Source: Rhodovulum sp. MB263 (GTDB taxonomy: Bacteria > Pseudomonadota > Alphaproteobacteria > Rhodobacterales > Rhodobacteraceae). Taken from it: 64,000 nt of DNA. Each line of letters opens with the position of its first letter. Positions within the stretch are counted from its first letter, which is position 1. The stretch covers positions 1 to 64,000 of the forward strand of contig NZ_CP020385.1 in NCBI RefSeq assembly GCF_002073975.1, read 5' to 3'. Of this stretch, positions 32,837-52,483 are shown piece by piece. The translations under genes were made by a program, and so were the position numbers. The notes beneath the pieces were generated by a model. That model searched no databases and was not told where the DNA came from. It was given only the letters and a program-made list of their open reading frames with translations.

Positions 32837-33096
32837 TGCGCCAGATCGCGCGCGTCGGAGATACCCATGTCTGCCCGCGCAAGGGGCATGGGACCAATGC
32901 CATCGTGACGGGCGGCTCTGCGCTGATCGACGGCCGGCCGGTCGCGCGGGTCGGAGACAAATGCGCCTGCGGCTGTGTCATCGTCTCGGGCGCGTCGCAG
33001 ATGACCTGCGACGACCGTCCGGTCGCGGTCCTGGGCTCCAAGACCTCCGGCGGCGGAACGATCGTTTCGGGCTCGCCGAATCACAAGACGATGTGA
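32836..33096 (+). CDS. PAAR-domain spike tip protein
   Basis: An 86-residue PAAR protein that sharpens the VgrG spike. Two PAAR-type repeats are visible (GSALIDGRPVARVGDKCACG and ASQMTCDDRPVAVLGSKTSGGG). C-G-C and His residues (HVCPRKGHG, NHKTM) can bind the tip zinc. Start ATG 32836, in TGATG overlap with vgrG and after AAGGAGGAGG. It has no C-terminal effector extension. Confidence 0.92.
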   Translation: MRQIARVGDTHVCPRKGHGTNAIVTGGSALIDGRPVARVGDKCACGCVIVSGASQMTCDDRPVAVLGSKTSGGGTIVSGSPNHKTM

Positions 33097-34536: not shown

Positions 34537-35013
34537 ATGGAACGGGCACCGCTGCCTTCGGTCAGGTTCGGGACGGCGTCTGAACTGCGCGCGGCGCTGG
34601 TCGGCTGGATCGGCGCAACCGTGCCGGGCTGCCGGGTCGGCGCGCCCGGCGAGAAAACCGGAAACGACGCGGGCGGAGAGGGCCTGCGGGCGGTGCTGCG
34701 GCTGGGCGACATCGCCCCCGTTCCCCATGGCGAGGGCCGCGACCTGGTGCTGGCCCGGGCGAGCTACCGGCTGGATCTGGCAGCCGGGGGCATAGCCGAG
34801 GCCGAACAGGCGCTGGTCGATCTGATCCTCGGGGGCGCGGGGCATCCGGCCTTCGCGGTCGAGGCCGTGGCGCAACCCGATGCGCCGCTGCCGGGGCTTG
34901 CGATCCGGGCCTGTCTGGAACGGCGCCGTGCAGCGCCGGCAGCGCCGCCGGTCAGGATCCACAATGTCGAACTGCGCCCGGGACGACACCCCGGGGAACG
35001 GGAGACGGGATAG
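34537..35013 (+). CDS. Contractile-system protein, possible tail terminator
   Basis: A 158-residue protein that opens the contractile operon, 48 bp before the sheath. The pattern (ASELRAALVGWIG near the start, then a beta-rich part with RASYRLDLA, and LVDLILGGAGHPAF) loosely recalls short tail-terminator or cap proteins (Pvc16/DUF4255 type) that sit on the tube end, but it is only about half the length of Pvc16. I recognise no exact family, so this is an inference from position and fold pattern. Start ATG 34537 has CGGAGGGG upstream. Confidence 0.5.
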   Translation: MERAPLPSVRFGTASELRAALVGWIGATVPGCRVGAPGEKTGNDAGGEGLRAVLRLGDIAPVPHGEGRDLVLARASYRLDLAAGGIAEAEQALVDLILGGAGHPAFAVEAVAQPDAPLPGLAIRACLERRRAAPAAPPVRIHNVELRPGRHPGERETG

Positions 35014-35061
35014 CGACAGGGGCCGCGCAATCGGGGCCCGTTCAGGGGGAGGGGGACGGCA

Positions 35062-36270
35062 ATGGTGATGACGGTAGCGGCGCCCGGCGTCTATGTTTTC
35101 GAAGAGAAGCTGGGCCCGAGGACCATCGAGGCGGTCGGCACCAGCGTCGCGGCGCTGGTGGGGCGGGTGCCCTTGCGCGGGGTCGCGGCGGGAACCCCGG
35201 TCCCCGTCAACGGCTGGATGGAGTTCCGCCGCCGCTTCACCGACGAGGACAGCTCCAGCACCGATCTGAGCAATGCCGCCTTCGGCGCCTTCGCCAACGG
35301 GCTGCGGCGGCTTTGGGTGATGCCGACCGAGGCCGGCTCCGAGATCTCGGATGACGATCTGCGGCCGCTCGAGGGGATCGACGAGATCGCCATCGTGGCA
35401 GCGCCGGGCTATGCCACCAAGGCCAGCCATGACGCCCTGGCGACCCATGCGATGCGCTGCAGCGACCGCTTTGCCCTGTTCGATCTGCCCAAGGACGCGC
35501 CGGTCGAGGCGATGACCGAGGTCGGCGGCGCCACCCGGCGCGGGGGGGCCGCGACCGATGGCGGTGGCGACGGCCCCGCCCCTGCTCCGTCTTCGGCCCC
35601 GTCTTCGGCCACGGCCAAGGCGGTGCGCCCCTCCAGCATCGATTGCGGCGCCTGCTATGCGCCCTGGCTGCTGATGCAGGACCCGCTGAAGCCCGGCGAA
35701 CGGGTGCTGGCGCCGCCCTCGGGGCATGTGGCGGGGATCTATGCCCGGGTCGACGCCACCCGGGGCGTGCACAAGGCGCCCGCCAACGAGCTGGTGCTGG
35801 CCGCCATCGATGCCGAGCGCCGGATCACCCGCCAGCAGCAGGAGCTGCTGAACCCGCGCGGGGTCAACGCGATCCGGTTCATGGGCGGAGGGCTGAAGGT
35901 CTGGGGGGCGCGGACGCTGTCCGAGGATTCGCTCAACCGCTACGTGCCGGTGGTACGGCTGGTGCTGATGATCAGGGAATCGATCGAACAGGGCACGGGC
36001 TGGGTGGTGTTCGAGCCGAATTCCTATCCGCTCTGGGAGGCGATCAAGCTCGACGTGCGGGCCTTCATGACCCGGCTCTGGCGCTCCGGCGCGCTGGTCG
36101 GGCGGACCCCGGACGAGGCGTTCTTCGTGAAATGCGACGAAGAGACCAACCCGCCCGAGATACGCGATGCGGGCCGGGTCGAGACGCTGATCGGCTTCGC
36201 GCCGGTGCGACCGGCCGAATTCGTGATCTTCCGGCTGGCCCAGGTCACGGCCGGGGCCGAGCCCGCCTAG
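35062..36270 (+). CDS. Contractile sheath protein (phage tail sheath family)
   Basis: A 402-residue sheath subunit, the contracting outer layer. The N-terminal APGVYVFEEKLGPRTIEAVGTSVAALVG and the C-terminal core (GVNAIRFMGGGLKVWGARTL; GTGWVVFEPNSYPLWEAIK; DEAFFVKCDEETNPPEI; FAPVRPAEFVIFRLAQ) are canonical for Pvc2/Afp2 and phage sheaths. Between about 154 and 190 a Gly/Ala/Ser/Pro-rich linker sits where larger sheaths carry a surface domain. Only one sheath gene is present; Afp and PVC loci have three. The tube gene follows after 63 bp. Confidence 0.93.
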   Translation: MVMTVAAPGVYVFEEKLGPRTIEAVGTSVAALVGRVPLRGVAAGTPVPVNGWMEFRRRFTDEDSSSTDLSNAAFGAFANGLRRLWVMPTEAGSEISDDDLRPLEGIDEIAIVAAPGYATKASHDALATHAMRCSDRFALFDLPKDAPVEAMTEVGGATRRGGAATDGGGDGPAPAPSSAPSSATAKAVRPSSIDCGACYAPWLLMQDPLKPGERVLAPPSGHVAGIYARVDATRGVHKAPANELVLAAIDAERRITRQQQELLNPRGVNAIRFMGGGLKVWGARTLSEDSLNRYVPVVRLVLMIRESIEQGTGWVVFEPNSYPLWEAIKLDVRAFMTRLWRSGALVGRTPDEAFFVKCDEETNPPEIRDAGRVETLIGFAPVRPAEFVIFRLAQVTAGAEPA

Positions 36271-36333
36271 GGCCGGCATGAGGGCAGGGCGCGGCCGCAA
36301 GGCCGGGTCCGGGACAGGACGAGGAGGGGGACG

Positions 36334-36798
36334 ATGCCTGAAAACGCCACGGCCGCGCGGCCCGAGCCGCTGCGCAACTACCAGTTCTCGCTGCAGATCC
36401 AGAACCGCGAGATCGCGGCCTTCACCGCCTGCACCAATCTTGGGATGCGGATCGCACCGATCCGCTATCGCGAGGGCGGCGCCCATGAGGCGGTGCGCTG
36501 GCTGACCGGCGACACCGAATATGGCGAGGTCTGCCTGCGCTTCGGCGTCACCAATTCGACCGAACTCTGGGACTGGATCATGACCGCGGCCGCCGGCGCG
36601 GTCGAGCGGCGCAATGTGGCGATCATCCTCTATACGCCCCGGGGCGACGAGGCCTTGCGCTACAACCTGACCGCCGCCTGGCCCTGCGAATGGGCGGGCG
36701 CGCATCTGGACGCGCTCGATCAGGGCGTGGCCTATGAATACGTCAAACTGGTCTTCGAACAGATCGCGGCGGTGCCGCGCGCCGCGGCGGCGACCTGA
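36334..36798 (+). CDS. Contractile-system inner tube protein
   Basis: A 154-residue tube protein of the gp19/Hcp-like family (Pvc1/Afp1 type). The motifs RNYQFSLQIQNREIAAFTAC and VRWLTGDTEYGEVCLRFGV are typical, and it ends in ALDQGVAYEYVKLVFEQI. Hexameric rings of it stack inside the sheath. A single tube gene is present, whereas Afp has two. Ribosome site GGACGAGGAGGGG precedes the ATG. Confidence 0.92.
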   Translation: MPENATAARPEPLRNYQFSLQIQNREIAAFTACTNLGMRIAPIRYREGGAHEAVRWLTGDTEYGEVCLRFGVTNSTELWDWIMTAAAGAVERRNVAIILYTPRGDEALRYNLTAAWPCEWAGAHLDALDQGVAYEYVKLVFEQIAAVPRAAAAT

Positions 36799-36799
36799 G

Positions 36800-38107
36800 A
36801 TGACCGGGCGCCAGGGCTTGCTGGCCGGGACGGTTTCGGCGCTGGGGCGGATCCTGGGCCGGATCGCCCTCCTGCTGTCGAAGCGCGGCGGGGCGGCGGC
36901 CGCCTCCGGGGACGGGCCGGGGCCGGGGGACGGGCGGCCACCCGCCCATTGGCTGGCCGCGATCCGCGCCGCCGCGCCCGACAAGCTGGACGGCCCCCGG
37001 CTGATCGCCGATTTCGCGGGCGGCATCCCCAACCGGAGCGCCGGGCCGGAACGCGCATCGCCGCCCTCTGCGGCCCCTCCAGTAGGCGTAGAGAGGAGGG
37101 CAGCGGAAAGCGGGGCCATGCCAGTCTCTGCGCCGGTATCTGTGCCGGTATCTGTGCCAGTATCTGACCCCGGGTCTGCGGCCTCTGCCGCCTCCCCGCC
37201 TTCGGCGACGCCACTTGCGCCTGGCGCACGGGGCCCGCACCCGGCCTCTCCATCGGTGACCCGTTCTCCCGCCGCGCGGTCGCGCAGCCCGTATCCCCGG
37301 GTCTCGGTTCTGCCCCCGACCTCGCTGGCGGCTGCGGCGGTCCTGGCAGAGACGGAGCGGGCGGCGCGGGAGGGCGCTCCGGCGACGCCGCCGCGCCGGA
37401 ACCCGTCGGTGCATGTGCTGCCCTGGCCGGCCCCTGCCGTCCCCTCGATGCCGAGTGAGGACCCTGACGCAGGAGCGGCCCGGGAACGGGCAGGTCGCCA
37501 TCGGGCGCTTTTGGGTACAGACCAGAGCCGGGGCCGCGAGGAGGGACAAGGCGACAGAGACGGCGAGGGACACCAGCGGCCACAGGGCGGACAGGCTGGG
37601 TCTGAGAAAGGGCAAGGCGACTGGCCCGACGATTGGCAAGGACAGGGGCAGGCCGACCCGCATCCCGGGACCTCGATGCCTCCGGATCCTCCCTTGCCTC
37701 TGCCGGAGCACGCGGCCCCTGCTGCGGTCTCGCATGTCGTCCCCGCGCCTGTTCCGCCGGGCTTCCCACCGGGCCTCCCCCTGCAGCCGCGACGGTCGGG
37801 GCGCGCGGAGGCCTGCGCCGGGACGGTCCGCCTGCCGGTCCGGGCCCCGGGCGTCGATCCGACCCCCGCTTGCGTCCCCGCGCTCGCGGCGGACGGACCG
37901 CGCGCAACCCCGCCCGCAACCCCGACCGTTTTCGGGACGAGGGAGGCCGGGCCGGCAAGCATCGCCGATGCGGCCGGGCGGTTCCCGGCCCTGGATCCGG
38001 TGCGCGAGGCCGATCCGCTGCCGCCCTTCGAGCGGCGGCTGGACGGTCCCGAGTCGCGCCGGGCGCGGCTCATGCGCGAGCAGGGAGGTGAGCTATGGAC
38101 CGTGTGA
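36800..38107 (+). CDS. Proline-rich low-complexity protein of the contractile operon
   Basis: A 435-residue protein starting 1 bp after the tube stop and overlapping the LysM gene by 13 bp. The first 80 residues (RILGRIALLLSKRGG; WLAAIRAAAPDKLDGPRL) and the last 40 (DAAGRFPALDPVREADPLPP to the end) look ordered. The middle is rich in Pro, Ala, Gly and Ser and carries a PVSx repeat. I find no family. It takes the place where other systems encode small baseplate or tape-measure genes, but it lacks their helical pattern, so a tape measure is unlikely. Possible disordered adaptor, cargo or length-setting protein. Confidence 0.6.
   Translation: MTGRQGLLAGTVSALGRILGRIALLLSKRGGAAAASGDGPGPGDGRPPAHWLAAIRAAAPDKLDGPRLIADFAGGIPNRSAGPERASPPSAAPPVGVERRAAESGAMPVSAPVSVPVSVPVSDPGSAASAASPPSATPLAPGARGPHPASPSVTRSPAARSRSPYPRVSVLPPTSLAAAAVLAETERAAREGAPATPPRRNPSVHVLPWPAPAVPSMPSEDPDAGAARERAGRHRALLGTDQSRGREEGQGDRDGEGHQRPQGGQAGSEKGQGDWPDDWQGQGQADPHPGTSMPPDPPLPLPEHAAPAAVSHVVPAPVPPGFPPGLPLQPRRSGRAEACAGTVRLPVRAPGVDPTPACVPALAADGPRATPPATPTVFGTREAGPASIADAAGRFPALDPVREADPLPPFERRLDGPESRRARLMREQGGELWTV
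37121..37168 (+). repeat. Four 12-bp tandem repeats inside the Pro-rich gene
   Basis: Units at 37121-37132, 37133-37144, 37145-37156 and 37157-37168 share CC(A/G)GT(A/C)TCTG; the middle two are identical (CCGGTATCTGTG). They encode P-V-S-A/V/D units and could expand or contract without a frameshift. Confidence 0.85.
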
Positions 38108-38910
38108 TGCTGCTGGTCGACGAGACCGGGGACCAGATCTCGGCCCTCCTGAACCCCGCAAGCCTCAGCTTCCGGCGCCAGTCCGGGCTGCGTCCCCGGC
38201 GCCGGATCGGCGCGGCCGTGGTCGGCGGGACCGGCCGCGACGCGCCACTGGTCTTCGCGGGCGACGCGGTCACCGAACTCGAGCTGGAGCTGCTGTTCGA
38301 TGCCGATTTCGCGGCCCCTGCCGGTCCCGGCCCGTCCACCCCCGCCCCCCGCGACAGTCTTGACGTGCGGCGGCTGACCGCGCCGATCTGGCGGCTGTCC
38401 GAGGCGGCGGACGCGCGCGGCGAGGCGCTGGACGACCTGCCCCAGCTGTTCCTGATCTGGGGCCGTGCCACCAAGCTGCGCTGCCGCCTGATGGGGCTTT
38501 CGGAACGGCTGGAACGGTTCGACGCGGTGGGCATCCCGCGCCGGTCCTGGCTGGCGCTGAGGTTCCGGGTGTTCCAGGAGGCCGAGGAGGACCCGCGCGG
38601 CTATCTGCCTCTGCCCGCGCCGGTTCTGGCAAGCTTCCCGGACGAGGCGCCGGTGCCGGGGGCGCTGGCGGGGCCGCCCGACCCGGATCTGCCCGGGCTG
38701 ATGATGGACCGAAGCCCCGGCGTCACCGTGACCGGCGGCGCGCGGCTCGATGAGATCGCCGCGCGCTGGCTGGGCTCGCCCGCCGACTGGCGCTGGCTGG
38801 CCGTCCTCAACGACCTGACCGATCCGCTGCGGCTGGAGCCCGGCAGCGTGCTGAGCCTGCCGCCGCCCGGCGCCGCTCCGGGCGCCCCGACCACGGGGGC
38901 CGCGCCATGA
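38095..38910 (+). CDS. LysM-domain baseplate hub protein (Afp7/Pvc7 type)
   Basis: A 271-residue protein. The N-terminal part (LLVDETGDQISALLNPASLSFRRQSGL) matches the start of eCIS Afp7-like proteins. A C-terminal LysM-like domain at about 215-262 (VTVTGGARLDEIAARWLGSP; WRWLAVLNDL) parallels gp53/LysM subunits that join spike to tube and wedge. Overlaps the Pro-rich gene upstream by 13 bp and the spike gene downstream by 4 bp. Confidence 0.85.
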   Translation: MDRVMLLVDETGDQISALLNPASLSFRRQSGLRPRRRIGAAVVGGTGRDAPLVFAGDAVTELELELLFDADFAAPAGPGPSTPAPRDSLDVRRLTAPIWRLSEAADARGEALDDLPQLFLIWGRATKLRCRLMGLSERLERFDAVGIPRRSWLALRFRVFQEAEEDPRGYLPLPAPVLASFPDEAPVPGALAGPPDPDLPGLMMDRSPGVTVTGGARLDEIAARWLGSPADWRWLAVLNDLTDPLRLEPGSVLSLPPPGAAPGAPTTGAAP

Positions 38911-40388
38911 CCGAGATGCCCCGCCCCGGCCGCGATCTGGAACGCAAGCTGACGGTGCGGCTCGACGGCGTGCCGCTGGCGCCCGCGGCGGTCGATGCCC
39001 TGACCGGGATCGAGCTGCGCCAGACCGCCTCGGCGCCCGCGCTTTGCGAGCTGTCCCTCGAGGCGGGCGGCACTCTGCCGCTGGATCCGGGCGCACTGAC
39101 GGGACAGCGGCTCGAGATCGCGGCGGGGCCGGGGGCCGTGCTGTTCGAGGGCAGCATCGGCGCGGTTGCCACGGGCCGGGCGCGGCCGAACCGAAGGACA
39201 CTGCGGATCAGGGCGCATGACCCGCTGGTGGCGCTCTATCGTTCCGCGCTGCCCGCGCGGCACGAGGCCGACGGGCTGGATGCGCTGGCCCGCGCGATCC
39301 TCGGCCGCCACGGGCTGACGCTGCGGTGCGAAAGCGGGGCGCCCTGTCCGGCGGTGCTGTTGCAGCACGGCACCGACGATCTGCGGTTTCTGGCCCGGCA
39401 GGCGGCGAAGCTGGGCTTTCATCTGGCCGCCGAGGGCCGGGCCGTCGATCTGTTCGGCGCGGACGGGCTGGGTGCGCCCTTGCAGCTGTCCTTCGAAGGC
39501 GGCTTGCTCGAGGCCGAGATCGAGGAGAACGCGCTTGCGGGTTTTGCCGCCACCCGGCTGACGCTGTGGGATACGGGGCCGAACCGGCCGCTTGCGGGGG
39601 AAAGCCCGGGCGCTGTGCCGGGCCGGGCGGGCGAGGTCACGCTGGCGGCGGAGCTTTACGAGCCGCCCGTTACCGCGGACTGGCTGAGCGGCACGCGCGC
39701 GGCCCAGCATGGCTCGGCCGCGCGCCGGATCTCGGGCGTGGCCCTTGGCGATGCCGCGCTCAGGCCGGGGCGGCGGATCACGCTTGGGCTGGAGCCGGGT
39801 CGGACCGCCGGGGGCACCATCGCCGAGACCCTGCACCGGGTCGAACCGGGGCTGGGCTGGGTCACCGAATTCCGCACCGGGCTGCCCGCCTGGGTGCCCT
39901 CCGGGGGCATGCTGGCGGCGCCGGGCAGCGTGTCAGAGGTCTCGGGCGGGGACGATCCGCTGCTGCGGCTGAAACTGGACCTCTGCGACGGGCTGGAAAC
40001 CGACTGGCTGGCGGTGGCTTTGCCCGGCGCCGGGGCCGACAAGGGCATGATCGCGCTGCCCGAACCGGGCGACCGCGTGCTGGCGCTGGTCTTCGCCGAG
40101 AACCCTGCCCATGGTTTCGTGCTGGGCGGGCTATACGGCGAACAGCAGGTGCCGGGGCTGGGGCGCGGCCCGGACGGGGTGCGGCCCTATCTTCTGCGCA
40201 CGCCGCGCGGCCAGCAATTGCTGCTGAGCGACCGGGGCGCCCGGGTCGAGCTGCGCGCCAGCGGCGGCAGCCGTCTGACCGCCGGGCCGTCCCGGACCGA
40301 GCTGCATTCGGCGGGCGATCTGGTGATCGAGGCGCCGGGCCGGGCGATCACGATCCGGGCGGCAAGCATCGGTTTCGAAGAGGGGTAG
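38907..40388 (+). CDS. VgrG-like spike protein of the contractile system (Afp8/Pvc8 type)
   Basis: A 493-residue gp27-gp5-type spike. gp27-like domains cover about 1-330 (LKLKLD begins the OB-fold near 350), and the OB-fold includes ALPEPGDRVLALVFAENPAHGFVLGGLYG, typical of eCIS spikes. A short beta-helix ends the protein (LVIEAPGRAITIRAASIGFE). It differs clearly from the T6SS VgrG at 30788. The next gene encodes its PAAR-like tip. Confidence 0.9.
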   Translation: MTEMPRPGRDLERKLTVRLDGVPLAPAAVDALTGIELRQTASAPALCELSLEAGGTLPLDPGALTGQRLEIAAGPGAVLFEGSIGAVATGRARPNRRTLRIRAHDPLVALYRSALPARHEADGLDALARAILGRHGLTLRCESGAPCPAVLLQHGTDDLRFLARQAAKLGFHLAAEGRAVDLFGADGLGAPLQLSFEGGLLEAEIEENALAGFAATRLTLWDTGPNRPLAGESPGAVPGRAGEVTLAAELYEPPVTADWLSGTRAAQHGSAARRISGVALGDAALRPGRRITLGLEPGRTAGGTIAETLHRVEPGLGWVTEFRTGLPAWVPSGGMLAAPGSVSEVSGGDDPLLRLKLDLCDGLETDWLAVALPGAGADKGMIALPEPGDRVLALVFAENPAHGFVLGGLYGEQQVPGLGRGPDGVRPYLLRTPRGQQLLLSDRGARVELRASGGSRLTAGPSRTELHSAGDLVIEAPGRAITIRAASIGFEEG

Positions 40389-40389
40389 C

Positions 40390-40719
40390 ATGCGGGTCCT
40401 GGTCGAACCGGCAACAATCGTCTGTGCCCATGGCGGCACGATCCCGCAGCGGGCCTCGCAGGGTTTCGTGACGGTGATGGGCGCCCCCGTGCTGGTCGGG
40501 CCCGATCCGGTGCCGCGGCGGGTCGATCTCTGCCCGCTGCCGCCGCCCCAGAAGAAATGCCTGACCACGATCACCGTCACGGCGGGCTATTCGCGCTTCG
40601 TGACCGTCGGCGGGCGGCCGGTCTGCCTCGACACGCTGGCGGGGCTCACCGAGGGCTCGCCGGTCGGCACCTGGCGCGTGCTGGCGCCGGGACAGGCCCT
40701 GGTGGAGTGCAGCGCATGA
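40390..40719 (+). CDS. PAAR-like tip protein of the contractile system
   Basis: A 109-residue protein. VEPATIVCAHGGTI at the start, a central C-P-L/KKCLTTITVTAGYSRFVTVGGRPVCLDT and a final PGQALVECSA follow the pattern of eCIS PAAR-like proteins. Cys and His residues could hold the tip metal. It starts 1 bp after the spike stop and overlaps the gp25 gene by 4 bp. Confidence 0.75.
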   Translation: MRVLVEPATIVCAHGGTIPQRASQGFVTVMGAPVLVGPDPVPRRVDLCPLPPPQKKCLTTITVTAGYSRFVTVGGRPVCLDTLAGLTEGSPVGTWRVLAPGQALVECSA

Positions 40720-41180
40720 TCGCCCGGAGCGCCATGCTGCAGGGGATCGGGTTCGGCCTGGGGACCGGCGGGGGCGCATCGCGGGCCGCGGGGCCGGGGA
40801 TCGGCCATACCGGCGCGCTGCTGCTTGTGCCCGAGGCCGCCTGCATCCGCCAGGATCTGCTGCTGCTGCTCCTGACGGTGCCGGGCGAGCGGGTGATGCG
40901 CCCGGCCTTCGGCTGCCATCTCGACCGGCTGCTGTTCCAGCCCAATGACGCGACGCTGGCGGGGCTTGCGATCCATTACGTGCGCCAGGCCGTGGCCCGG
41001 TTCGAGCCGAGGATCGAGATCGTCGGCCTCGATGCCGGGCGCCCGGCCGGGGCAGGGCCGGATGCGGAAGCCGGGGCGGGCAACCTGCTCGAGATCGTGC
41101 TGAGCTACCGGATCCGCCGCAGCCGGACCGAGGACGGGCTGGTGTTGCGGGTCGATCTCGATGCGGGGGGCCCGCCATGA
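40716..41180 (+). CDS. gp25-like baseplate wedge protein
   Basis: A 154-residue wedge subunit of the gp25/Afp9 family. The family core is LLLLLTVPGERVMRPAFGCHLDRLLFQPND followed by FEPRIEI and a C-terminal strand LEIVLSYRIRRSRTED. gp25 starts sheath assembly by providing the sheath-like fold at the baseplate. It overlaps its neighbours by 4 bp each. Confidence 0.92.
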   Translation: MIARSAMLQGIGFGLGTGGGASRAAGPGIGHTGALLLVPEAACIRQDLLLLLLTVPGERVMRPAFGCHLDRLLFQPNDATLAGLAIHYVRQAVARFEPRIEIVGLDAGRPAGAGPDAEAGAGNLLEIVLSYRIRRSRTEDGLVLRVDLDAGGPP

Positions 41181-43708
41181 GCCTGCCGCTGCCGCAGCTG
41201 GACGACCGCGATTTCGCGGCCCTGGTCGAGGAGGCGCTGGCCCGTGCCCGGCAGAGCTGCCCGGACTGGACCGACATGTCGCCCGCCGATCCCGGCCGCG
41301 CCCTGATCGAGGCCTTCGCCCATCTGACCGATGTGATGATCTTCCGGCTGAACCGGCTGCCGCGCAAGCTTTACGTGGCCTTCCTGAACCTTCTGGGCGG
41401 CGAGCTGCGCCCGCCCTCGGCCGCGACCGCGATGCTGGAGTTCCGCCGCGAGGAAGGCGAGGCGGATCTGGCTCCGGCCGCCGTGACGATCCCCGCCGGC
41501 ACCCGGATCGGCGGCCGGGGCGAGGGCGCGCCGGTCTTCGTGACGCTGGAACAGGCGGTGCTGGCGGCCGATGCCCCAAGCGTCTCGGTGCGCGCGATCC
41601 ATGCCGCCTGGGTCGAGGGAGAGCTGCTCTCCGAGGGGGTCGAGGGTCCCGGCGCGGTGCTGGCGCTGGCGCAGGGTCCGGTGATCGCGCCTCTGCCCTA
41701 TGAGAGCGGCATCCTTCTGGGCGTCGAGGAAAGCGCGGGCGGGCGCCCGATGCGCCGCTTCGGCGGGCGGGATTTCGCGCTCTGGCCCGGGCTCGAGACG
41801 CCGTTCGAGCTGTTCTCGGACGGCCCGGGCTTTTACTGCGCGCGGGCTGCGGGGCGGATCTTCCTGCCGCGCGCGGCCCCGGGCAGCGCGGGCGTGCCCC
41901 CGCGCGATGCGCAGATCCGGGCCTGGTATCTGACCGGCGGCGGGGCGGCGGGCAATGTTGCGGCCGGAACGCTGAGCGACCTGCGCGACCCGCTCCCGGG
42001 GCTGACGGTGCGCAATCCCGAACGCGCGGCGGGCGGGCGCGACGCCGAGCCGCTGGAAGCGGCGCTGGAACGCATCCCGCGTGAGGTGTTTTCCGACCGC
42101 CGCGCGGTCACTGCCCGCGATTTCGAGGCCATCGCCACCGGCGAGGGCGGGGTGGCGCGGGCCCAGGCGCGGACCGGGGTGCAGCTCTGGGCCCATGCCG
42201 AACCGGGCACGGTCGAGCTGCTGCTGGTGCCCGAACCGGCGCCCGGCCAGTCCGATGCGGTGGGCCGCCGCGCCGGGATCGAGCCGTTGCAGACCGAAGA
42301 GCTGCGCGGCCGCATCGCCCGCCTCATCGCCGCGCGCAAGCCGCTGGGGGTGACGGTCAATGTCGCCTGGGCGCGGCTGAAACCGCTGTCGATCCGGGTC
42401 GATGTCGAGATCGAGCCCGACGCGCCCGAGGACGCGGTCCTGCGCCGGATCGAGGCGAGGCTCGACCGGCTGATCTCGCCCTTCCGCGACTGGCCGCCGG
42501 GCCGTCCGATCCGGCCCGCCGATGTCTATGGCACGGTGCTGGCCGAACCCGGGGTGCGCAGCGCCCGTTCGGTGGTCTTCGAGGTCGCCGAGGCGCCCGA
42601 TACGGATGTCCGCGACGCGGTGCCCGACCCGCATCAGCCGCGCACCTGGTTCGCGGCCGCGGGCGACGCCATCTTCCGGTCGCTGAATGACGGCGCCAGC
42701 TGGGAAAGCGTCGCCCGGCAGGAGGGCTGTCCGGCGGTCGCGATGCGCCCGCATCCGACGCGGCCGGGACTGGTCGCCGCGGTCTGGGCCGAGGGCGGGA
42801 ACCATACCGAGGACGGCGCGCGGCTGGCGGTCAGCTTCGATTGCGGCGAAACTTGGCAACGCGACGCGATCCGCTTCGACAGCTGGATCTACGACCTGGC
42901 CTGGCTGGGACGGGCGTCCGATCCGGTGCTGCTGATCGCCACCCGCTCGGGGCTTTACACTTGGCAGCTCCGCTCCGAGGCCCTGCAGCGGCGGCTTCCG
43001 GTCGCGGCCGGGGTGGATGCGGTGGGCGCCTATGCGGTCCTGGCCACCGAAACCGCGCTCGGCCGCCCGGTGGTGGTGCTGGCGACGCGGGAACAGCGGG
43101 GGGTGTGGATCTCCTACGATCCGCTGGAGCCGGGCAGCTTCGTCGCGACCGGGCTCGAGGGCAGCGACATCCGGGTGCTGGACGCGGCCGATCTGGCGGG
43201 CGGGCGTTATATCTGGGCGGGTGCGCGGGCCACCGGCGGCAGCGCGGGCGAGGGCGCCTTCCGGCTGACCCTGCCCGAGCGGCCGCAGGATCTGGACGCC
43301 TGGCAGCCCCTGCGCGCGCACTGGCGGGGGGGCTCGTGCCTCGGCTTCGCCTTTCTCGGCAGCCGCGCCTATGCCGGGTCCTTCGATGCCGGGGTGCTCG
43401 AGGCCGATCTGGCGGCCGATCCGCTGTCCTGGACCGCGCCCGAGGTCGATATTGGCCTGCCCTTCCGCAGCCGCGAAAACCTGTTCGAGCCGGTCGCGGC
43501 GCTGGCCGCGCGCGCCGCCGGTCCCGGCGGGCCCGAACTCATGATGGCGGCCGGTCCGCGCGGGCTTTATGCGCGGGGCGAAGGCGGCGGGCCCTTCGCC
43601 GCCACCTCGCCGACCCTGTTCGAGAACGAGGTCCGGCTGCCCGCGCCCTGGCTCTTCGCCTCGGAGCCCCATCGCATCAGGGTGATCGGATCCGATGACA
43701 CGCCATGA
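41177..43708 (+). CDS. gpJ-like baseplate wedge protein fused to an Asp-box beta-propeller
   Basis: An 843-residue two-part protein. Residues about 1-475 are a baseplate J/gp6-type wedge (Afp11/Pvc11): DMSPADPGRALIEAFAHLTDVMIFRLNRLP near 35-65, a middle beta part and the C-terminal VFSDRRAVTARDFEAIA and DRLISPFRDWPPGRPIRPADVYG. From about 477 the sequence becomes sialidase-like, with Asp boxes SLNDGASWES (about 501) and SFDCGETWQR (about 552), and a weaker SYDPLEPGSF (about 645), consistent with a BNR beta-propeller of several blades. It could bind a surface ligand or carry a hydrolase fold. Overlaps gp25 by 4 bp and gpI by 14 bp. Confidence 0.85.
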   Translation: MSLPLPQLDDRDFAALVEEALARARQSCPDWTDMSPADPGRALIEAFAHLTDVMIFRLNRLPRKLYVAFLNLLGGELRPPSAATAMLEFRREEGEADLAPAAVTIPAGTRIGGRGEGAPVFVTLEQAVLAADAPSVSVRAIHAAWVEGELLSEGVEGPGAVLALAQGPVIAPLPYESGILLGVEESAGGRPMRRFGGRDFALWPGLETPFELFSDGPGFYCARAAGRIFLPRAAPGSAGVPPRDAQIRAWYLTGGGAAGNVAAGTLSDLRDPLPGLTVRNPERAAGGRDAEPLEAALERIPREVFSDRRAVTARDFEAIATGEGGVARAQARTGVQLWAHAEPGTVELLLVPEPAPGQSDAVGRRAGIEPLQTEELRGRIARLIAARKPLGVTVNVAWARLKPLSIRVDVEIEPDAPEDAVLRRIEARLDRLISPFRDWPPGRPIRPADVYGTVLAEPGVRSARSVVFEVAEAPDTDVRDAVPDPHQPRTWFAAAGDAIFRSLNDGASWESVARQEGCPAVAMRPHPTRPGLVAAVWAEGGNHTEDGARLAVSFDCGETWQRDAIRFDSWIYDLAWLGRASDPVLLIATRSGLYTWQLRSEALQRRLPVAAGVDAVGAYAVLATETALGRPVVVLATREQRGVWISYDPLEPGSFVATGLEGSDIRVLDAADLAGGRYIWAGARATGGSAGEGAFRLTLPERPQDLDAWQPLRAHWRGGSCLGFAFLGSRAYAGSFDAGVLEADLAADPLSWTAPEVDIGLPFRSRENLFEPVAALAARAAGPGGPELMMAAGPRGLYARGEGGGPFAATSPTLFENEVRLPAPWLFASEPHRIRVIGSDDTP

Positions 43709-44249
43709 GATCGCAGCCCTCCTGCCCGAGATCCTGCGCGAGGCCGACCGCCCCGCCTCGCCCTTCCGCGCGCTGCTCGAGGCGATGGTCGGGCTGGCCG
43801 ATCCGGTCGACCGCGAGATCGACGGGCTCGACGTCCAGATCGACCCCAGGCGCTGCCGCGACCGGATGCTGGGGATGCTGCTGGGATGGCTGGATCTGGG
43901 GCCGGTGGCCGCGGCGGTCGCGCGCCATGTCCGCGATCCGGCCCTGCGCGATGCGCGGCTCCGGCGGCTGGCCTTGGCCGCGCCCGCGCTGCTGCCCCGG
44001 CGCGGCACCCAGGCCGGGCTGCGCGACATGCTGGCGGCGGCCTCGGGGCTGGAGGCGCTGCAGCTCTGCGAAAGCCGACCCGGCGACGGCCCGGGCCTTC
44101 GCCCGTTTCATGTGGTCATCGAATATCCCCGGCCCGAAAGCCCCGTCCGCGCCCTGATCCGGGAGGTGGCCGAGCTGGAGAAACCGGCCTTCGTCAGCTT
44201 CGAGATCGTCGAATTCTCCGCAACCGAAGACCGTGAGGAAGGAACCTGA
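43695..44249 (+). CDS. gpI-like baseplate wedge protein (phage tail protein I family)
   Basis: A 184-residue protein of the gpI/Afp12 family, partner of gpJ in the wedge. Family features are the early FRALLEAMVGLADPVDREID, a run of helices (RLALAAPALLPRRGTQAGL) and FHVVIEYPRP. Its start lies inside the end of the gpJ gene. Confidence 0.85.
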   Translation: MTRHEIAALLPEILREADRPASPFRALLEAMVGLADPVDREIDGLDVQIDPRRCRDRMLGMLLGWLDLGPVAAAVARHVRDPALRDARLRRLALAAPALLPRRGTQAGLRDMLAAASGLEALQLCESRPGDGPGLRPFHVVIEYPRPESPVRALIREVAELEKPAFVSFEIVEFSATEDREEGT

Positions 44250-44253
44250 GGGA

Positions 44254-45594
44254 ATGCCAAGTTTCGAGATCGACGCCCCCCAGCTTGTGATAGAGCCTTC
44301 CGGCAGCGTGCAGGTCGGCATTTCCAACCGGGCCAACCAGGCCCGGAGCTGCCGTCTGCAGATCGCCTCCGAAGATGCCGAGACCGCGGGCTGGGTCGCG
44401 ATCTCGCCCTGGCAGGAACGCAGCCTGCAACCGAACGAGCGCAGCGAAATCACGCTGAGCGTGACCCCGCCGCCCGATGCGGCGACCAAAGCGGCAACCG
44501 GTCCGCGGCGGTTCCGGCTGCTGGCGGTCGAGGTCTCGAACCCCGACGAGGATGTCGCGCGCAGCCCCGATTTCCGCTTCGATCTGCCCGGGGGCGGGGG
44601 CGCCAGGACGCCGCTCTGGCCGTTCATCGCCGCGGGGGTCGCGGCGCTTCTTCTGGTGATCGGGGTCGGGGCCTATCTGTTCTGGCCGCCCGGGACGGCA
44701 CTGGTGCCGGGGCTGAGCGGGCTGCAGCTTTCCGAGGCCGAGGCCCGCCTGAAAGAGGCCGATCTGGTCCTGGGCGATGTCGAGGATCGGGAAACCGGCG
44801 GCGCTGCGCCGGGCATCGTTCTCGCTCAGGATCCGGGCGAGGGCGCCGAGCTTGCGCGCGGCTCGGCGGTGGCGCTGACCGTGTCGATCGAGCCGACCCG
44901 GGCCGAGGTGCCGAACCTGGTTGGCCTGAGCCAGGCCAACGCCGAGAACATCCTGCGCGATCGCGGGCTGCGTCTGGGACGGATCTCGACCCGGGAAAGC
45001 GGCGGCGTTGCGCCGGGAACGGTGCTTGCCCAGGACCCGGCAGCGAGCGCCGGGCTTGCGCCGGGCTCGGCGGTGGCGGTGGTGCTGGCAGCCGCGCCGG
45101 AGGAGGCGGTCGACGAGGACTGCATCCGCCACGATCCGGGCCGCATCGCGGCAAAGCAGATCGGCGGCCGCTGGAAGATCGTCGAGGGCAGCCACTGGAT
45201 GCTGGATTTCGGCACCGATGGCGACAGCGCGAAGAAGGCGCTGGCGGTGCTGCAGGCCTATGGCGCCGACCGGATCTGCTATGTGAGCCGGCCGCAGCCA
45301 CCGATGATGTATATCCTGAACGGCGACAGCGCCCCGGCCGCCACCGCCGCGACCCGGCAGAGACTGGCGGCGGCGGGGATCGGCCGCGAGGATTGCATCG
45401 GTTTCGATCCGGCGACGCTGGATCTGGAAAGCGGCGGCTCGGGGGTGACGCTGGTCAGCGACCGCAGCCGGATGATCCTCTTTCGCAACATGGACGAGGC
45501 GAAGACGGCGCTGAGGGTGATCCGCAAGCACGGTTTCACCCGGCAATGCTTCGTCGGCCGTCCGAACCCCGAATTCCGGTATTTCCTGCGCTGA
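44254..45594 (+). CDS. Membrane-anchored PASTA-domain protein of the contractile operon
   Basis: A 446-residue single-pass protein. Residues 1-112 form a beta-rich N-domain (VQVGISNRANQARSCRLQIA). One transmembrane helix is at about 122-144. Two PASTA repeats follow at about 148-212 and 217-280 (VPNLVGLSQANAENILRDRG; GTVLAQDP). Two copies of a domain of about 70 residues end the protein: 289-358 (GGRWKIVEGSHWMLDFG; ICYVSRPQPPMMY) and 380-446 (CFVGRPNPEFRYF). There is no signal peptide, so the N-domain may face the cytoplasm and the PASTA part the periplasm. PASTA domains bind peptidoglycan or muropeptides. It may tether the system to the envelope. Ribosome site GAGGAAGGAACC; 4 bp after gpI. 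Confidence 0.82.
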   Translation: MPSFEIDAPQLVIEPSGSVQVGISNRANQARSCRLQIASEDAETAGWVAISPWQERSLQPNERSEITLSVTPPPDAATKAATGPRRFRLLAVEVSNPDEDVARSPDFRFDLPGGGGARTPLWPFIAAGVAALLLVIGVGAYLFWPPGTALVPGLSGLQLSEAEARLKEADLVLGDVEDRETGGAAPGIVLAQDPGEGAELARGSAVALTVSIEPTRAEVPNLVGLSQANAENILRDRGLRLGRISTRESGGVAPGTVLAQDPAASAGLAPGSAVAVVLAAAPEEAVDEDCIRHDPGRIAAKQIGGRWKIVEGSHWMLDFGTDGDSAKKALAVLQAYGADRICYVSRPQPPMMYILNGDSAPAATAATRQRLAAAGIGREDCIGFDPATLDLESGGSGVTLVSDRSRMILFRNMDEAKTALRVIRKHGFTRQCFVGRPNPEFRYFLR

Positions 45595-45615
45595 ACTCTA
45601 TGAAAGGAGACAGAA

Positions 45616-45924
45616 ATGGCGCTTGCACTTCCTGTGACGATGAAGAAGGCGGTTCATGTGATCGGTATCCTGTGCGCGGCTGCGGCCGGGCTTGCCCTGA
45701 TCATCCACGGCGCGATCATCACCAGGGCGCCGCTGGAAATCGCCTGGGGCGCGATCTTCCTGGCCGGGGCGCTCCTTGCCGTGCTCGGCGGGGCGACGGC
45801 CAGCCCCCGGGGCGGCATCGACCCGCCCTCAGTGGGGGCGAAATTCACCCGGATCGCCGACTGGGCCTGGTATTGCATCGCGGCTCTCGTGGTGGTGGGC
45901 ATCGTCCTGAGCTTCGTGATCTAG
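45616..45924 (+). CDS. Small membrane protein with about three helices
   Basis: A 102-residue protein with hydrophobic segments at about 12-33, 40-60 and 78-100 (VVVGIVLSFVI) and a short polar loop (GGIDPPSVGAKFTRIADWA). Ribosome site AAAGGAGA. It lies 21 bp after the PASTA gene. I recognise no family. Its place suggests a membrane partner of the contractile system. Confidence 0.72.
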   Translation: MALALPVTMKKAVHVIGILCAAAAGLALIIHGAIITRAPLEIAWGAIFLAGALLAVLGGATASPRGGIDPPSVGAKFTRIADWAWYCIAALVVVGIVLSFVI

Positions 45925-45934
45925 GCCGGGCGCA

Positions 45935-46384
45935 ATGGGGGTGAAGGGCGCGGTCGCGCTGTTGCTGGTCTTCGGTCTCGTCTTCTACCTGACGCTGGGG
46001 GCGGGGCTGATGACCGGACGCGGCACCGGCCCGCCCGATCCCGAAAATTTCAGCGCCCCGGGATGGACCGGGGCGCTGGACCGGCTCGTCGCGCCGTTCC
46101 GGCCGCGGCTGGACCTGTCGCAGACCCGCTTCGTCTTTACCGAGGCCGGCTCGATCGAGCTGCCGCGGATTTCGGGCGAGGCGATGCGGCGGGCCAGTTT
46201 CGCGGTCGAGGGACGGGCGCGGCTGATCTATTCCTGCCCGGGATGCGACGGGGATCAGGTCTGGCCAGAGGAAGGGACCCGCGATTTCGGCAAGGTGAGC
46301 TTTGCGGTCTTCCCCTCGGGCGGGCGGATCCTGGTCCGTCCCCAGAGCAGCCGGGTGGTGCTCAGCTTACGGGACGGGCGGTGA
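45935..46384 (+). CDS. Membrane-anchored protein of unknown function
   Basis: A 149-residue protein with one N-terminal helix (AVALLLVFGLVFYLTLGAGL) and a soluble part containing a C-P-G-C motif (YSCPGCDG), possibly redox-active or metal-binding. It follows the previous gene by 10 bp and overlaps the converging gene by 23 bp. Probably the last gene of the contractile operon. No family recognised. Confidence 0.65.
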   Translation: MGVKGAVALLLVFGLVFYLTLGAGLMTGRGTGPPDPENFSAPGWTGALDRLVAPFRPRLDLSQTRFVFTEAGSIELPRISGEAMRRASFAVEGRARLIYSCPGCDGDQVWPEEGTRDFGKVSFAVFPSGGRILVRPQSSRVVLSLRDGR

Positions 46385-47078
46385 GAAGCGAACGGATCGC
46401 ACGGATCAGCCCCGGCAGGGTGCCGATGAACAGCGCCACGATCCAGACCAGCGCGAGGACCGAGGTGATCAGCGCCGCCAGCGCATCGGCGATCGAGGCG
46501 AGAAAGCCCGGCACCAGGGCATGCAGGACTGCCGTCAGCCAGGTCAGGGCCAGCGAGCTGGCAATCACCAGCATCAGGGTCTTCATCTTCAGGAAGCGCT
46601 GATGGGCGAGGATCAGGCAGATCGCGAAGCCGAGCTTGAAGGCCATGATCAGGGCCAGCGCGGCGGCGGCCTTTCCAGTCGGGAAATCCGCGAAGGCGGC
46701 GAAATAGGCCAGGGTGCCGAAAGGGACCGCCAGAAGCAGGGTCAACATCAGCATCAGCGCCGCGAAGGCCGCGAGGATCAGGGCCAGCACCGCAAGGCCG
46801 CCGATCAGCGCCAGCAGGATGCCGATGGCCGCCTGCACCCGTCCCGCCAGCGCGGGCCAGAGCAGGGCCAGCGCGATGGCCAAGGTGGCATAGACCAGGA
46901 TCAGGTCGATGGCGGCAAGGTAGGGCACGCCGAAGCCGGGCGAGATATCGGACAGCCCTCCCCCCGGTGGCGGCACCAGCGCGGGCCAGGCCAGGGCCAG
47001 ACCGATCTCGAAGGAGACCGCGAAGGCCAGCAGCACCAGCGCCAGCACGAAGAACGGCATGCGGAGGGTCTCGGTCAC
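46362..47078 (-). CDS. Polytopic membrane protein of unknown function
   Basis: A 238-residue protein with about six hydrophobic helices (MPFFVLALVLLAFAVSFEIGL; LILVYATLAIALALLWPAL; LLALIGGLAVLALILAAFAALM; and others). I start at GTG 47076-47078 because AAAGGGGA lies upstream; an ATG 18 bp later lacks one. Converging with the contractile operon. Whether it belongs to that system is unclear. No family recognised. Confidence 0.65.
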   Translation of the reverse strand: MTETLRMPFFVLALVLLAFAVSFEIGLALAWPALVPPPGGGLSDISPGFGVPYLAAIDLILVYATLAIALALLWPALAGRVQAAIGILLALIGGLAVLALILAAFAALMLMLTLLLAVPFGTLAYFAAFADFPTGKAAAALALIMAFKLGFAICLILAHQRFLKMKTLMLVIASSLALTWLTAVLHALVPGFLASIADALAALITSVLALVWIVALFIGTLPGLIRAIRSLLTARPVS

Positions 47079-47645: not shown

Positions 47646-48770
47646 TCAGAGCCCGCGGGCGATGACCATGCGCTGCACCTCGCTGGTGCCCTCGTAGATC
47701 TGGCAGACCCGGACGTCGCGATAGATCCGCTCGACGGGATAATCGGCCAGATAGCCATAGCCGCCATGGATCTGCAGCGCCGCCGAACAGACCTCCTCGG
47801 CCATTTCCGAGGCGAAGAGCTTGGCCATGCTGGCCTCGGTCAGGCAGGGCCTGCCCGCCTCGCGCAGGCGGGCCGCGCGCAGGACCAGAAGCCGCGCCGC
47901 GTCGATCCGCGTCGCCATGTCGGCCAGCCTGAACGCGACCGCCTGATGCTCGGCGATGGGGCGGCCGAAGGTGATCCGCTCGCGGGCATAGGCCAGCGCC
48001 GCCTCATGCGCCGCGCGCGCCATGCCGACGGCCTGCGCGGCGATGCCGATCCGGCCACCCTCGAGATTGGACAGTGCGATCCGGTAGCCCTCGCCCTCGG
48101 CGCCCAGCAGGTTCTCGGCCGGGACGCGCATGCCGTCGAAGGCCAGCGCGCAGGTGTCCGAGGCGTTCTGGCCGAGCTTTCTCTCAACCGAGACGACCTC
48201 GTAGCCGGGGGTATCCGTCGGGACGATGAAGGCCGAGATGCCCTTCTTGCCCGCCGCCTTGTCGGTGACCGCGAAGACGATCACCACCGCGCCGTTCTGG
48301 CCCGAGGTGATGAACTGCTTGGCGCCGTCGATGACATAGTGATCGCCCTCGCGCCGCGCCGTGGTCTTCAGCGCCGAGGCGTCGGAGCCCGCCTGCGGCT
48401 CGGTCAGGGCAAAGCCGCCGATCCACTCGCCCGCGGCCATCTTCGGCAGAAACCGGGCCTTCTGTTCTTCGGTGCCGTAGCGCAGGATCGGCATGCAGCC
48501 CACCGAACTGTGCACCGAGACGATGGTGGAACAGGCGCCGTCGGCGGCGGCGATCTCTTCGAGCGCCAGCGCATAGGCCACCATGCCGGTATCCGAGCCG
48601 CCATGGGCCTCCGGTACCAGCATGCCCATGAAACCCAGTTCGCCCAGCTCGGTCATCTCGGCGCGGGGGAAGGCATGGTCACGGTCGCGGGCGGCGGCGC
48701 CGGTGGCAAGGCGCCCCTGCGCGAAGGCGCGCGCGGCCTCGCGGATCTGGTCCTGCTCTTCCGTCAGCAT
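47646..48770 (-). CDS. Acyl-CoA dehydrogenase
   Basis: A 374-residue flavoprotein that makes trans-2-enoyl-CoA from acyl-CoA, passing electrons to ETF. The family features are [19 protein letters not shown] near 125, [12 protein letters not shown], and [45 protein letters not shown], with the catalytic Glu in IYEGTSE. It matches short-branched/short-chain or isobutyryl-type dehydrogenases in length. It overlaps the thiolase stop by 1 bp and is the last gene of a four-gene operon. Confidence 0.93.
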
Positions 48771-49951
48771 CAGGCGAACCTTTCCACGGCCATGGCGGTG
48801 GCCTCGCCGCCGCCGATGCAGAGCGAGGCGACGCCGCGTTTCAGCCCGTGGGTTTCGAGCGCCGCGAGCAGCGTCACCAGCACCCGCGCCCCCGAGGCGC
48901 CGATGGGATGACCAAGCGCGCAGGCTCCGCCATGGATGTTGACGATGTCATGCGAGAGCCCCAGATCGCGGATCGCGGCCATGGCGACGACGGCGAAGGC
49001 TTCGTTCACCTCGAACAGGTCGATTTCGGACAGCGTCAGCCCGGTGCGCTCGGTCAGCTTGCGGATCGCGCCGATGGGGGCGGTCGGAAACAGCGAGGGC
49101 TTGTCGGCATGGGTGGCATGGCCGAGGATGCGGGCCAGGGGTGTCAGGCCCCGGCGCTCGGCCTCGGAGGCGCGCATCAGGACCAGCGCGGCGGCGCCGT
49201 CCGAGATCGACGAGCTGTTGGCCGCAGTCACGGTGCCGCCCTCGCGGAAGGCGGGTTTCAGCGCGGGGATCTTCTCGGGGCGGGCCTTGCCGGGCTGTTC
49301 GTCAGTGTCGATCACCTGCTCGCCCTTGCGCGTGGCAAGGATCACGGGCGCGATCTCGGCCCGGAAGCGGCCTTCTGCGATGGCGGCATTGGCGCGCTCG
49401 AGCGAGGCGATGGCATAGGCGTCCTGGGCCTCGCGGGTGAACTGGAAGGCCTCGGCGCAATCCTCGGCGAAGGTGCCCATCAGCCGGCCCCTGTCATAGG
49501 CGTCCTCGAGCCCGTCGAGGAACATGTGGTCCTTCACCTCGCCATGGCCCATCCGGTAACCGCCCCGTGCCTTCGGCAGCAGATAGGGGGCATTCGACAT
49601 GCTCTCCATCCCGCCCGCGACAACCACCTGCGCCGAGCCGGCGGCGATCAGGTCATGGGCCAGCATCGCGGCCTTCATCCCCGAGCCGCACATCTTGTTG
49701 ACGGTGGTGGCGCCTGCGCCCAGGGGCAGGCCGGCCGCCAGCGCCGCCTGCCGGGCGGGGGCCTGGCCCTGGCCCGCGGGCAGCACGCAGCCCATCAGGA
49801 TCTCCTCGACCGCCTCGGGCGCGAGCCCGTTCAGGGCGGCGCGGATCGCGGTGGCGCCGAGGCTCGGGGCATCCGCCGCGGCAAGATCGCCCTGAAAGCC
49901 GCCCATGGGGCTGCGCCGGGCGCCGGTGATGACGATGGGATCGGAGGTCAT
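48770..49951 (-). CDS. Acetyl-CoA acetyltransferase / 3-ketoacyl-CoA thiolase
   Basis: A 393-residue thiolase. Nucleophile Cys in [13 protein letters not shown] (about 89), His in [16 protein letters not shown] and Cys in [15 protein letters not shown] near the end. It cleaves 3-ketoacyl-CoA to acetyl-CoA and a shortened acyl-CoA. It lies 10 bp after the hydroxyacyl-CoA dehydrogenase gene. Differs from the thiolase at 1122, which belongs to another branch. Confidence 0.93.
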
Positions 49952-49961
49952 GTCGGTTTCC

Positions 49962-50720: not shown

Positions 50721-50729
50721 GGGATATCC

Positions 50730-52391: not shown

Positions 52392-52469
52392 ATGTCGTCC
52401 TCCCTGACCCCTCCGCCCGCGTCTTCGGGGCGGCCTCCCGGGGTCCGGTGACATACTGTCGCGGGGACG

Positions 52470-52483
52470 CATTGCAAACAATG
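52470..52483. promoter_or_regulatory. Palindrome between acyl-CoA synthetase and AraC genes
   Basis: CATTG-N4-CAATG, perfect arms, in the divergent intergenic region about 80 bp from the ligase start and 35 bp from the regulator start. Candidate operator for the AraC-type regulator or another factor. Confidence 0.35.

Follow-up and report, generated by a model that had tools for sequence, protein, structure and literature searches.

A window of 64 kilobases (kb), the whole stretch of DNA analysed here, forms the start of a 238,713-base-pair (bp) contig in the 4.16-Mb, three-contig genome of Rhodovulum sp. MB263, and it carries an intact 13-gene operon for a contractile injection system (CIS) at positions 34537-46384. 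CIS are commonly sorted into released extracellular systems (eCIS), cell-bound type VI secretion systems (T6SS), and a few cytoplasmic cases. Judged by its encoded proteins, the locus is by descent a CIS of the lineage of the Photorhabdus virulence cassettes and the antifeeding prophage (Pvc/Afp), and the compact subfamily to which it belongs looks like an overlooked cell-anchored injection system. Our results suggest that a dedicated set of membrane proteins probably docks the device at the cytoplasmic membrane, on its inner face. A wider proposal, to which we give slightly less than an even chance, is that this subfamily forms a separate CIS class in about ten bacterial phyla, partly plasmid-borne, in which a three-part membrane module and a baseplate propeller replaced the set of ATPase, ruler and fibre. 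Such a device would sit loaded at the cytoplasmic membrane, its firing controlled by an exchangeable ectodomain that senses the wall or a ligand, and a disordered protein in its lumen would serve as ruler or cargo. The locus is more than a chance arrangement, because its gene set recurs on three plasmids and in 69 genome loci.

The initial annotation had described 13 overlapping or closely spaced genes on one strand, and all 13 open reading frames (ORFs) indeed lie on the forward strand, overlapping or 1-63 bp apart. They are listed here together with a convergent neighbour, g14 (aa, amino acids):

34537..35013, +, g1: Pvc16-type cap, 158 aa (family-level matches, none of its own in Pfam)
35062..36270, +, g2: single sheath protein, 402 aa (PF04984, PF17482; best PDB match 8bky_A, 2.5e-79)
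36334..36798, +, g3: tube protein, 154 aa (PF06841, 6.9e-31)
36800..38107, +, g4, called X: Pro/Ala-rich, probably disordered, candidate ruler or cargo (conserved end motifs)
38095..38910, +, g5: LysM-type hub, Pvc7-like (CIS_tube PF19266, 6.1e-8)
38907..40388, +, g6: spike, Pvc8/VgrG-like (Phage_base_V, 3e-10)
40390..40719, +, g7: PAAR-like tip (position and Cys/His set only)
40716..41180, +, g8: gp25 baseplate wedge (PF04965, 1.3e-19)
41177..43708, +, g9: gpJ (Pvc11/Cis11) with a C-terminal BNR/sortilin-type propeller (Baseplate_J, 3.2e-14)
43695..44249, +, g10: gpI, Pvc12-like (TIGR02242, 1e-7; CIS12_fam, 9.1e-5; both below cut-off)
44254..45594, +, g11: bitopic protein with a predicted cytoplasmic immunoglobulin (Ig)-like domain, one helix and a PASTA ectodomain (PASTA, 1.2e-25); alternative GTG start possible at 44233
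45616..45924, +, g12: small hydrophobic protein, not general (ORF)
45935..46384, +, g13: single-pass protein, predicted N-terminus inside (N-in), outer part Cys-containing (charge-based topology)
46362..47078, -, g14: multi-pass membrane protein, convergent overlap with g13 (alignments; GTG start proposed)

Promoter-like sequences, as consensus matches only, precede g1 and g14.

CIS-type sheath, tube, spike and gp25/gpJ baseplate genes are all present within this one cluster. The sheath (PF04984 2.1e-14, PF17482 8.3e-13) exceeded its Pfam cut-offs, as did the tube, hub, spike, gp25, gpJ and the PASTA repeats of g11, which bears out the first assignment of one sheath, one tube, a hub, a spike, gp25 and gpJ. 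The tube also matched CIS5_fam at 3.1e-25, below the cut-off of that model. Two other assignments held in part: the TIGR02242 match and a Pfam match of 0.026 point to gpI for g10, but every such match lies below cut-off; and g7 was called PAAR-like because of its operon position and a Cys/His set (C12, H14, C48, and C57) that is invariant in 40 relatives, but no Pfam or PDB profile supports the label. Pfam and further searches found no match for X, the PAAR-like tip or g13. The Rhodovulum sp. MB263 copy of g1 alone had no Pfam match. Among 48 aligned relatives (53 upstream genes were found and five in a wrong frame were removed by eye), Pvc16_N (PF14065) occurred in 18 and the carboxypeptidase-regulatory-like domain CarboxypepD_reg in 37, and the family profile matched the solved Pvc16-type chain 9gts_0A (PDB) at 4.3e-9. 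At the family level only, g1 is placed in the Pvc16 cap family.

A gpJ-alignment search of genome contigs confirmed 97 stretches, the best 80 of which yielded 79 loci. These were divided into the compact family (L090-L158, 69 loci) and an outgroup (L159-L168, 10 loci), because E-values of 1e-46 or better in the former give way to 1e-22 or worse in the latter. With the Rhodovulum sp. MB263 locus and three plasmid records, the compact set comprises 73 loci, the duplicates L081-L083 (equal to L158, L121, and L133) being uncounted; some of them are closely related to one another, so they are not 73 independent cases. A phylum was named for 67 of the 69 genome loci: Pseudomonadota (30), Chloroflexota (13), Actinomycetota (9), Acidobacteriota (5), Thermodesulfobacteriota (4), Myxococcota (3), and Planctomycetota, Fibrobacterota and Nitrospirota with one each. 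Nine phyla have a usable locus, among them Deinococcota, which is contributed by a plasmid; Nitrospirota is not counted, since its locus (L156) is only a fragment. The search for the same gene order in other genomes, suggested in the initial annotation, was successful: a 113-kb plasmid of R. sulfidophilum DSM 1374 bears the same 13 genes, and their order recurs on one plasmid each of Deinococcus sp. AJ005 and Paracoccus sp. MC1862. On the Deinococcus plasmid, PP2C phosphatase and VWA genes (L077:1-1871) lie some kb upstream of the operon and might point to a link with signalling. The system is rare among relatives of its host. In the host's family, 17 of 394 genomes gave a match to the spike query, four of these being compact loci, and g14 was found in one of 398 genomes of the host's phylum, Rhodovulum sp. 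MB263 itself. Other genomes of the same genus and family (L040-L058) contain larger, different CIS loci, some of them two-sheathed with Pvc15-type ATPases. A viral scan gave 11 loci, one of which (L171, a 7.5-kb fragment) belongs to the compact family. In the sheath tree the compact rows require two label changes among 93 rows. After removal of eight rows, taken from long or gappy ones, one clade was not rejected (approximately unbiased test, p-AU 0.714) and the constrained tree was better by 13.9 log units, which does not by itself prove a single clade.

Gene content was counted in the 46 of 73 loci with at least 7 kb before and at least 6 kb after an intact gpJ (flank-complete loci), 27 shortened or broken ones being excluded. 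One sheath ORF was present in 44, two in one, and none in one (L093); tube, hub, spike and PAAR-like tip each occurred in 45, and gp25, gpJ and gpI in all 46. In 38 loci the eight core genes followed one strict order. Of the eight exceptions, two were without some genes, and at least the Paracoccus one is an artefact of ORF starts, as its record shows the usual order. Between Rhodovulum sp. MB263 and R. sulfidophilum, none of the 14 genes has an internal stop. The ratio of nonsynonymous to synonymous substitution rates (dN/dS; Nei-Gojobori method, from a Biopython module marked experimental) was 0 for the tube, 0.18-0.59 for twelve other genes, and 0.91 for X, whose alignment started one codon late. 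The locus is under purifying selection and alive, not the dead locus that had been considered at the outset.

Most of the membrane proteins attached to this core are genuine parts of the system. The initial annotation had placed a PASTA protein and two small membrane proteins at the operon's end. Among the flank-complete loci this holds for the bitopic family (45, twelve of them two-copy) and g13 (43), but not for g12, whose family occurs in seven; the conserved minus-strand g14 (43 loci) had been missed. A membrane protein containing HExxH is likewise not general (7/46). Multi-pass proteins with an HExxH-like motif adjoin the bitopic gene, for example, at L077:17022-17963 and L081:4492-5484. 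In 64 of the 73 loci the bitopic protein combines one helix with a constant Ig-like domain of about 120 residues. A profile scan did not find the constant domain in the ten outgroup loci or in 34 further CIS or viral loci, and g13 and g14 are absent from the 10 outgroup loci as well. One protein with the constant domain is encoded in the Rhodovulum sp. MB263 genome. By flanking charge the bitopic N-terminus is predicted inside in 59 proteins and outside in 8, with 14 ties. The outer part measures 92-776 aa where the ORF appears whole. In 34 scanned proteins, a selection from 59 one-per-locus candidates, the ectodomain was PASTA in 22 and CARDB in 2, and Kelch and PD40 repeats occurred once each. 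PASTA is a common outer domain of the bitopic protein but can be exchanged for others. An anchor or sensor would be expected to show this pattern, in which the inner end stays constant and the outer ends vary. For g13, charge predicts N-in topology in 49 members and the opposite in one (10 ties), and at least four cysteines are present in 53 of 63. None of the 43 g14 members matched a Pfam family, and the sole PDB match, to a designed channel (4e-4), probably reflects hydrophobic composition. Envelope tethering of the device fits this predicted topology.

The baseplate protein gpJ carries a sortilin/BNR-type propeller in the compact family. The gpJ family profile matched the baseplate-J chain 9gtp_1K (5.4e-107) over positions 120-492, and positions of about 500-664 matched xyloglucanase, BNR and sortilin propellers (1e-12 to 1e-6). 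The propeller is taken from the family profile, because few single gpJ sequences match in Pfam (Sortilin-Vps10 in 5 and BNR in 2 of 50 at 1e-3). Outgroup gpJ ORFs stop aligning at about profile position 509.

X, encoded between tube and hub, was compared in 50 loci (55 ORFs were found and five removed by eye), in which it is 249-1202 aa long (median 378) with about 15% proline. An ORF ends at the X position in 44 of the 46 flank-complete loci; those of L104, L121, L122, and L124 were later dropped as not credible. X matched no family in Pfam or PHROGs. Its sequence drifts overall while its end motifs persist: 46 of 50 proteins contain a W-x-x-[LR]-[PL]-type motif (shuffled mean 7.5), 38 have an EQ-G-type motif within their last 40 residues (2.8), and 42 have an xW[LVRI] motif within their first 150 (9.0), counts that are not a blind test since the patterns were picked after inspecting the sequence ends. 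These features are consistent with a disordered lumen protein, which may be a ruler or cargo. For an actinobacterial CIS, a cargo related to the tape measure has been reported in the part of the source available (PMC13277306). On a planctomycete contig (L110:1-22526), X reaches 1202 aa, roughly threefold the median length.

A profile built from seven ATPases of the Pvc15 type in conventional loci, searched against ORFs of at least 70 aa, matched none of the 73 compact loci and six of the 10 outgroup loci (the four that supplied rows, L161 strongly, and L163 weakly). The genome of Rhodovulum sp. MB263 has no Pvc15-type ATPase, as the profile matched only the AAA cores of two open frames (673 and 794 aa) that we take for FtsH and ClpA, and a profile search did not find the tape-measure family PF10145 in it. 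The genome-wide check for both parts suggested in the initial annotation thus found neither, and its statement that the ATPase is missing stands. Its statement that a tape measure is missing is less secure, because X, located between tube and hub and with conserved motifs at its ends, is a candidate. Pfam and PHROGs scans agree that the operon holds no recognisable fibre; the profile CIS13_fam gave no match, but its control also matched in no genome. Among the first 22 further carrier genomes, seven had strong Pvc15-type matches (4e-100 or better) and 15 an AAA core only; among 20 more, seven were strong (5e-82 or better), one intermediate (G853, 1.3e-39), and 12 had none, an absence that counts for less because many of these are incomplete metagenome-assembled genomes (MAGs). 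Over all 43 carriers, Rhodovulum sp. MB263 included, the match was strong in 14, intermediate in 1, and absent beyond an AAA core in 28, and in outgroup genomes the profile matched 7 of 7 (1e-125 or better). R. sulfidophilum (G001) is a strain without any Pvc15-type gene. ClpV is not in the operon. T6SS ClpV1 exceeded its cut-off in 9 of 24 carriers, and 11 of 24 had neither ClpV1 nor a strong Pvc15 match. In Rhodovulum sp. MB263 a ClpV1 above cut-off lies at 154023-156617 of the same contig, about 108 kb from the operon. Pfam scans of the operon proteins, run without a profile aimed at TssJLM, showed no TssJLM. A scan of 99 of 128 listed neighbour ORFs found no Pfam family in more than two of them and so no common effector among the best 25 of 126 families. 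The absence of Pvc15 fits this lack, because Pvc15 was reported to help effector loading in PVC, as far as the available text goes (PMC11495950).

Taken together, we propose that the particle would be assembled in the cytoplasm from the parts whose genes are present, a gp25-gpJ-gpI baseplate, one sheath, one tube, and a Pvc16-type cap. The bitopic protein is predicted to keep its Ig-like domain inside, and its exchangeable outer domain (PASTA here) would grip or sense the cell wall. g13 and g14 would complete the docking module with it, and the baseplate would probably make its contact with this module through the gpJ propeller. A signal through the bitopic protein might then trigger contraction, by which tube and spike would be fired outward through the cell's own envelope, with X as the likely lumen protein. 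Lacking Pvc15, the system has no ATPase devoted to loading cargo, nor does it need a ClpV of the T6SS type, and each device is therefore probably used only once. As its target we lean slightly toward a neighbouring cell rather than a breach of the own cell.

Several observations weigh against membrane docking by a fixed module. Charge bias opposes N-in topology in the 8 bitopic proteins mentioned. Nine of the 73 loci are without a bitopic protein; in six the contig ends within about 2 kb of gpJ, and three (L093, L139, and L156) are not explained in this way. g13 is missing in three and g14 in three of the flank-complete loci, and the strong Pvc15-type match elsewhere in 14 of 43 carriers could act in trans there. 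The last point is what favours a normal eCIS with ATPase and other parts supplied from elsewhere in the genome. We regard this as very improbable, since at most an AAA core was found in 28 of 43 carriers (many in the later set of 20 being incomplete MAGs), and in Rhodovulum sp. MB263, where the sheath query matched this locus only, the finding of nothing but AAA cores led us to reject it. A degenerate eCIS remnant would account for the missing eCIS genes, but it is hardly credible when the same reduced set recurs in nine phyla with 14 of 14 genes stop-free and 13 within a dN/dS of 0-0.59.

A cytoplasmic CIS of the Streptomyces type has somewhat more in its favour, and we still consider it unlikely. 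Its particles would be free, recruited under stress by the bitopic protein, and would breach the cell's own membrane on contraction (regulated death or permeability). The closest solved sheath and gpJ chains, 8bky/8bl4 and 9gtp, presumably come from S. coelicolor (the Streptomyces CIS with CisA is of subtype IId), and the lack of a common effector (no family in more than two of 99 neighbours, best 25 of 126 families) would suit it. However, many carriers are single-celled, and the Streptomyces clusters L166 and L168 have the Pvc15-type ATPase that is absent here and no match to the constant-domain profile. CisA, compared by description only, is likewise bitopic and outside the particle in the available text, and by analogy it is the nearest precedent for the docking proposed here (PMC12237407). 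Its domains as described there, a disordered N-terminus and a substrate-binding-like outer domain, differ from the compact family, whose bitopic protein combines an Ig-like domain inside with, in many cases, PASTA outside, and which also has two further conserved membrane families (three in all) and a gpJ propeller. A released eCIS or tailocin-like particle without the ATPase, its membrane proteins serving lysis, release or immunity, is improbable. Particle parts including the cap are present, and R-type bacteriocins lack the ATPase according to the part of a survey available (PMC12210884), but the operon has no recognisable fibre, no lysis family is common to the neighbours (among the best 25 of 126 families, phage lysozyme was found in 2 of 99), and a membrane-spanning protein with a constant cytoplasmic domain would be odd for release.

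Three further identities were tried and rejected. As a phage or prophage tail, the operon gave mainly tail families in PHROGs, two of unknown function, and a weak endolysin match. As an anti-phage defence, only the bitopic protein among 10 matched PADLOC, over its PASTA region. As a T6SS outlier, it adjoins VgrG and PAAR genes here, but the upstream flank in R. sulfidophilum contains ATP-binding cassette (ABC) transporters. The T6SS-type VgrG and PAAR genes lie directly upstream of the operon at 30788-33096. After the operon, positions 47646-52481 hold acyl-CoA dehydrogenase, thiolase, short-chain dehydrogenase/reductase (SDR) and AMP-binding genes, the same as in R. sulfidophilum. As acyl-CoA dehydrogenase and thiolase genes follow the operon in both Rhodovulum, the downstream flank is common and the upstream flank differs.

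The anchored CIS proposed here shares homologous cap, sheath, tube, hub, spike, gp25, gpJ and gpI proteins with Afp/PVC-type eCIS. Unlike them the compact family lacks Pvc15, the ATPase characteristic of that type, has a single sheath, and carries an attached membrane module; neither Pvc13 nor Pvc14 was recognised. With T6SS subtypes i-iii it would share cell-bound contractile action, which is only proposed for the compact family, whereas its core proteins are of the CIS type and its operon has no ClpV; by its parts it is not a T6SS i-iii. In the available part of a study on an archaeal CIS, the system is membrane-docked, with a Cis11 cage fitted at the membrane contact, and a CIS without a tape-measure homologue can thus be docked (PMC11566945). 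The haloarchaeal T6SS-like CIS of Halogeometricum borinquense has an ATPase gene and Cis13, unlike the compact family, and the description available mentions no PASTA module. Roseiflexus clusters, assigned to subtype IId with an ATPase gene in the reference as far as that text is available (PMC12998442), appear to be another group. The open-licence PubMed Central (PMC) literature contained no paper linking CIS to PASTA plus sheath, to sortilin, or to Rhodovulum, with the proviso that supplementary tables of surveys may mention loci. Papers co-mentioning eCIS and PASTA were off-topic by title among the matches listed, and one on PASTA contains no contractile system in its available part (PMC7159879). 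Published surveys, as seen in their available parts, may under-count the compact family, because Geller et al. required at least 10 core genes (PMC8213781) and a metagenome survey from 2025 used eight known systems as its scoring reference (PMC12210884).

The finding matters for how a phage-tail-like baseplate becomes a membrane-docked machine. Because a small conserved gene set couples a baseplate of the Pvc type with particular membrane proteins in many phyla, removing a few genes would suffice to test docking and triggering.

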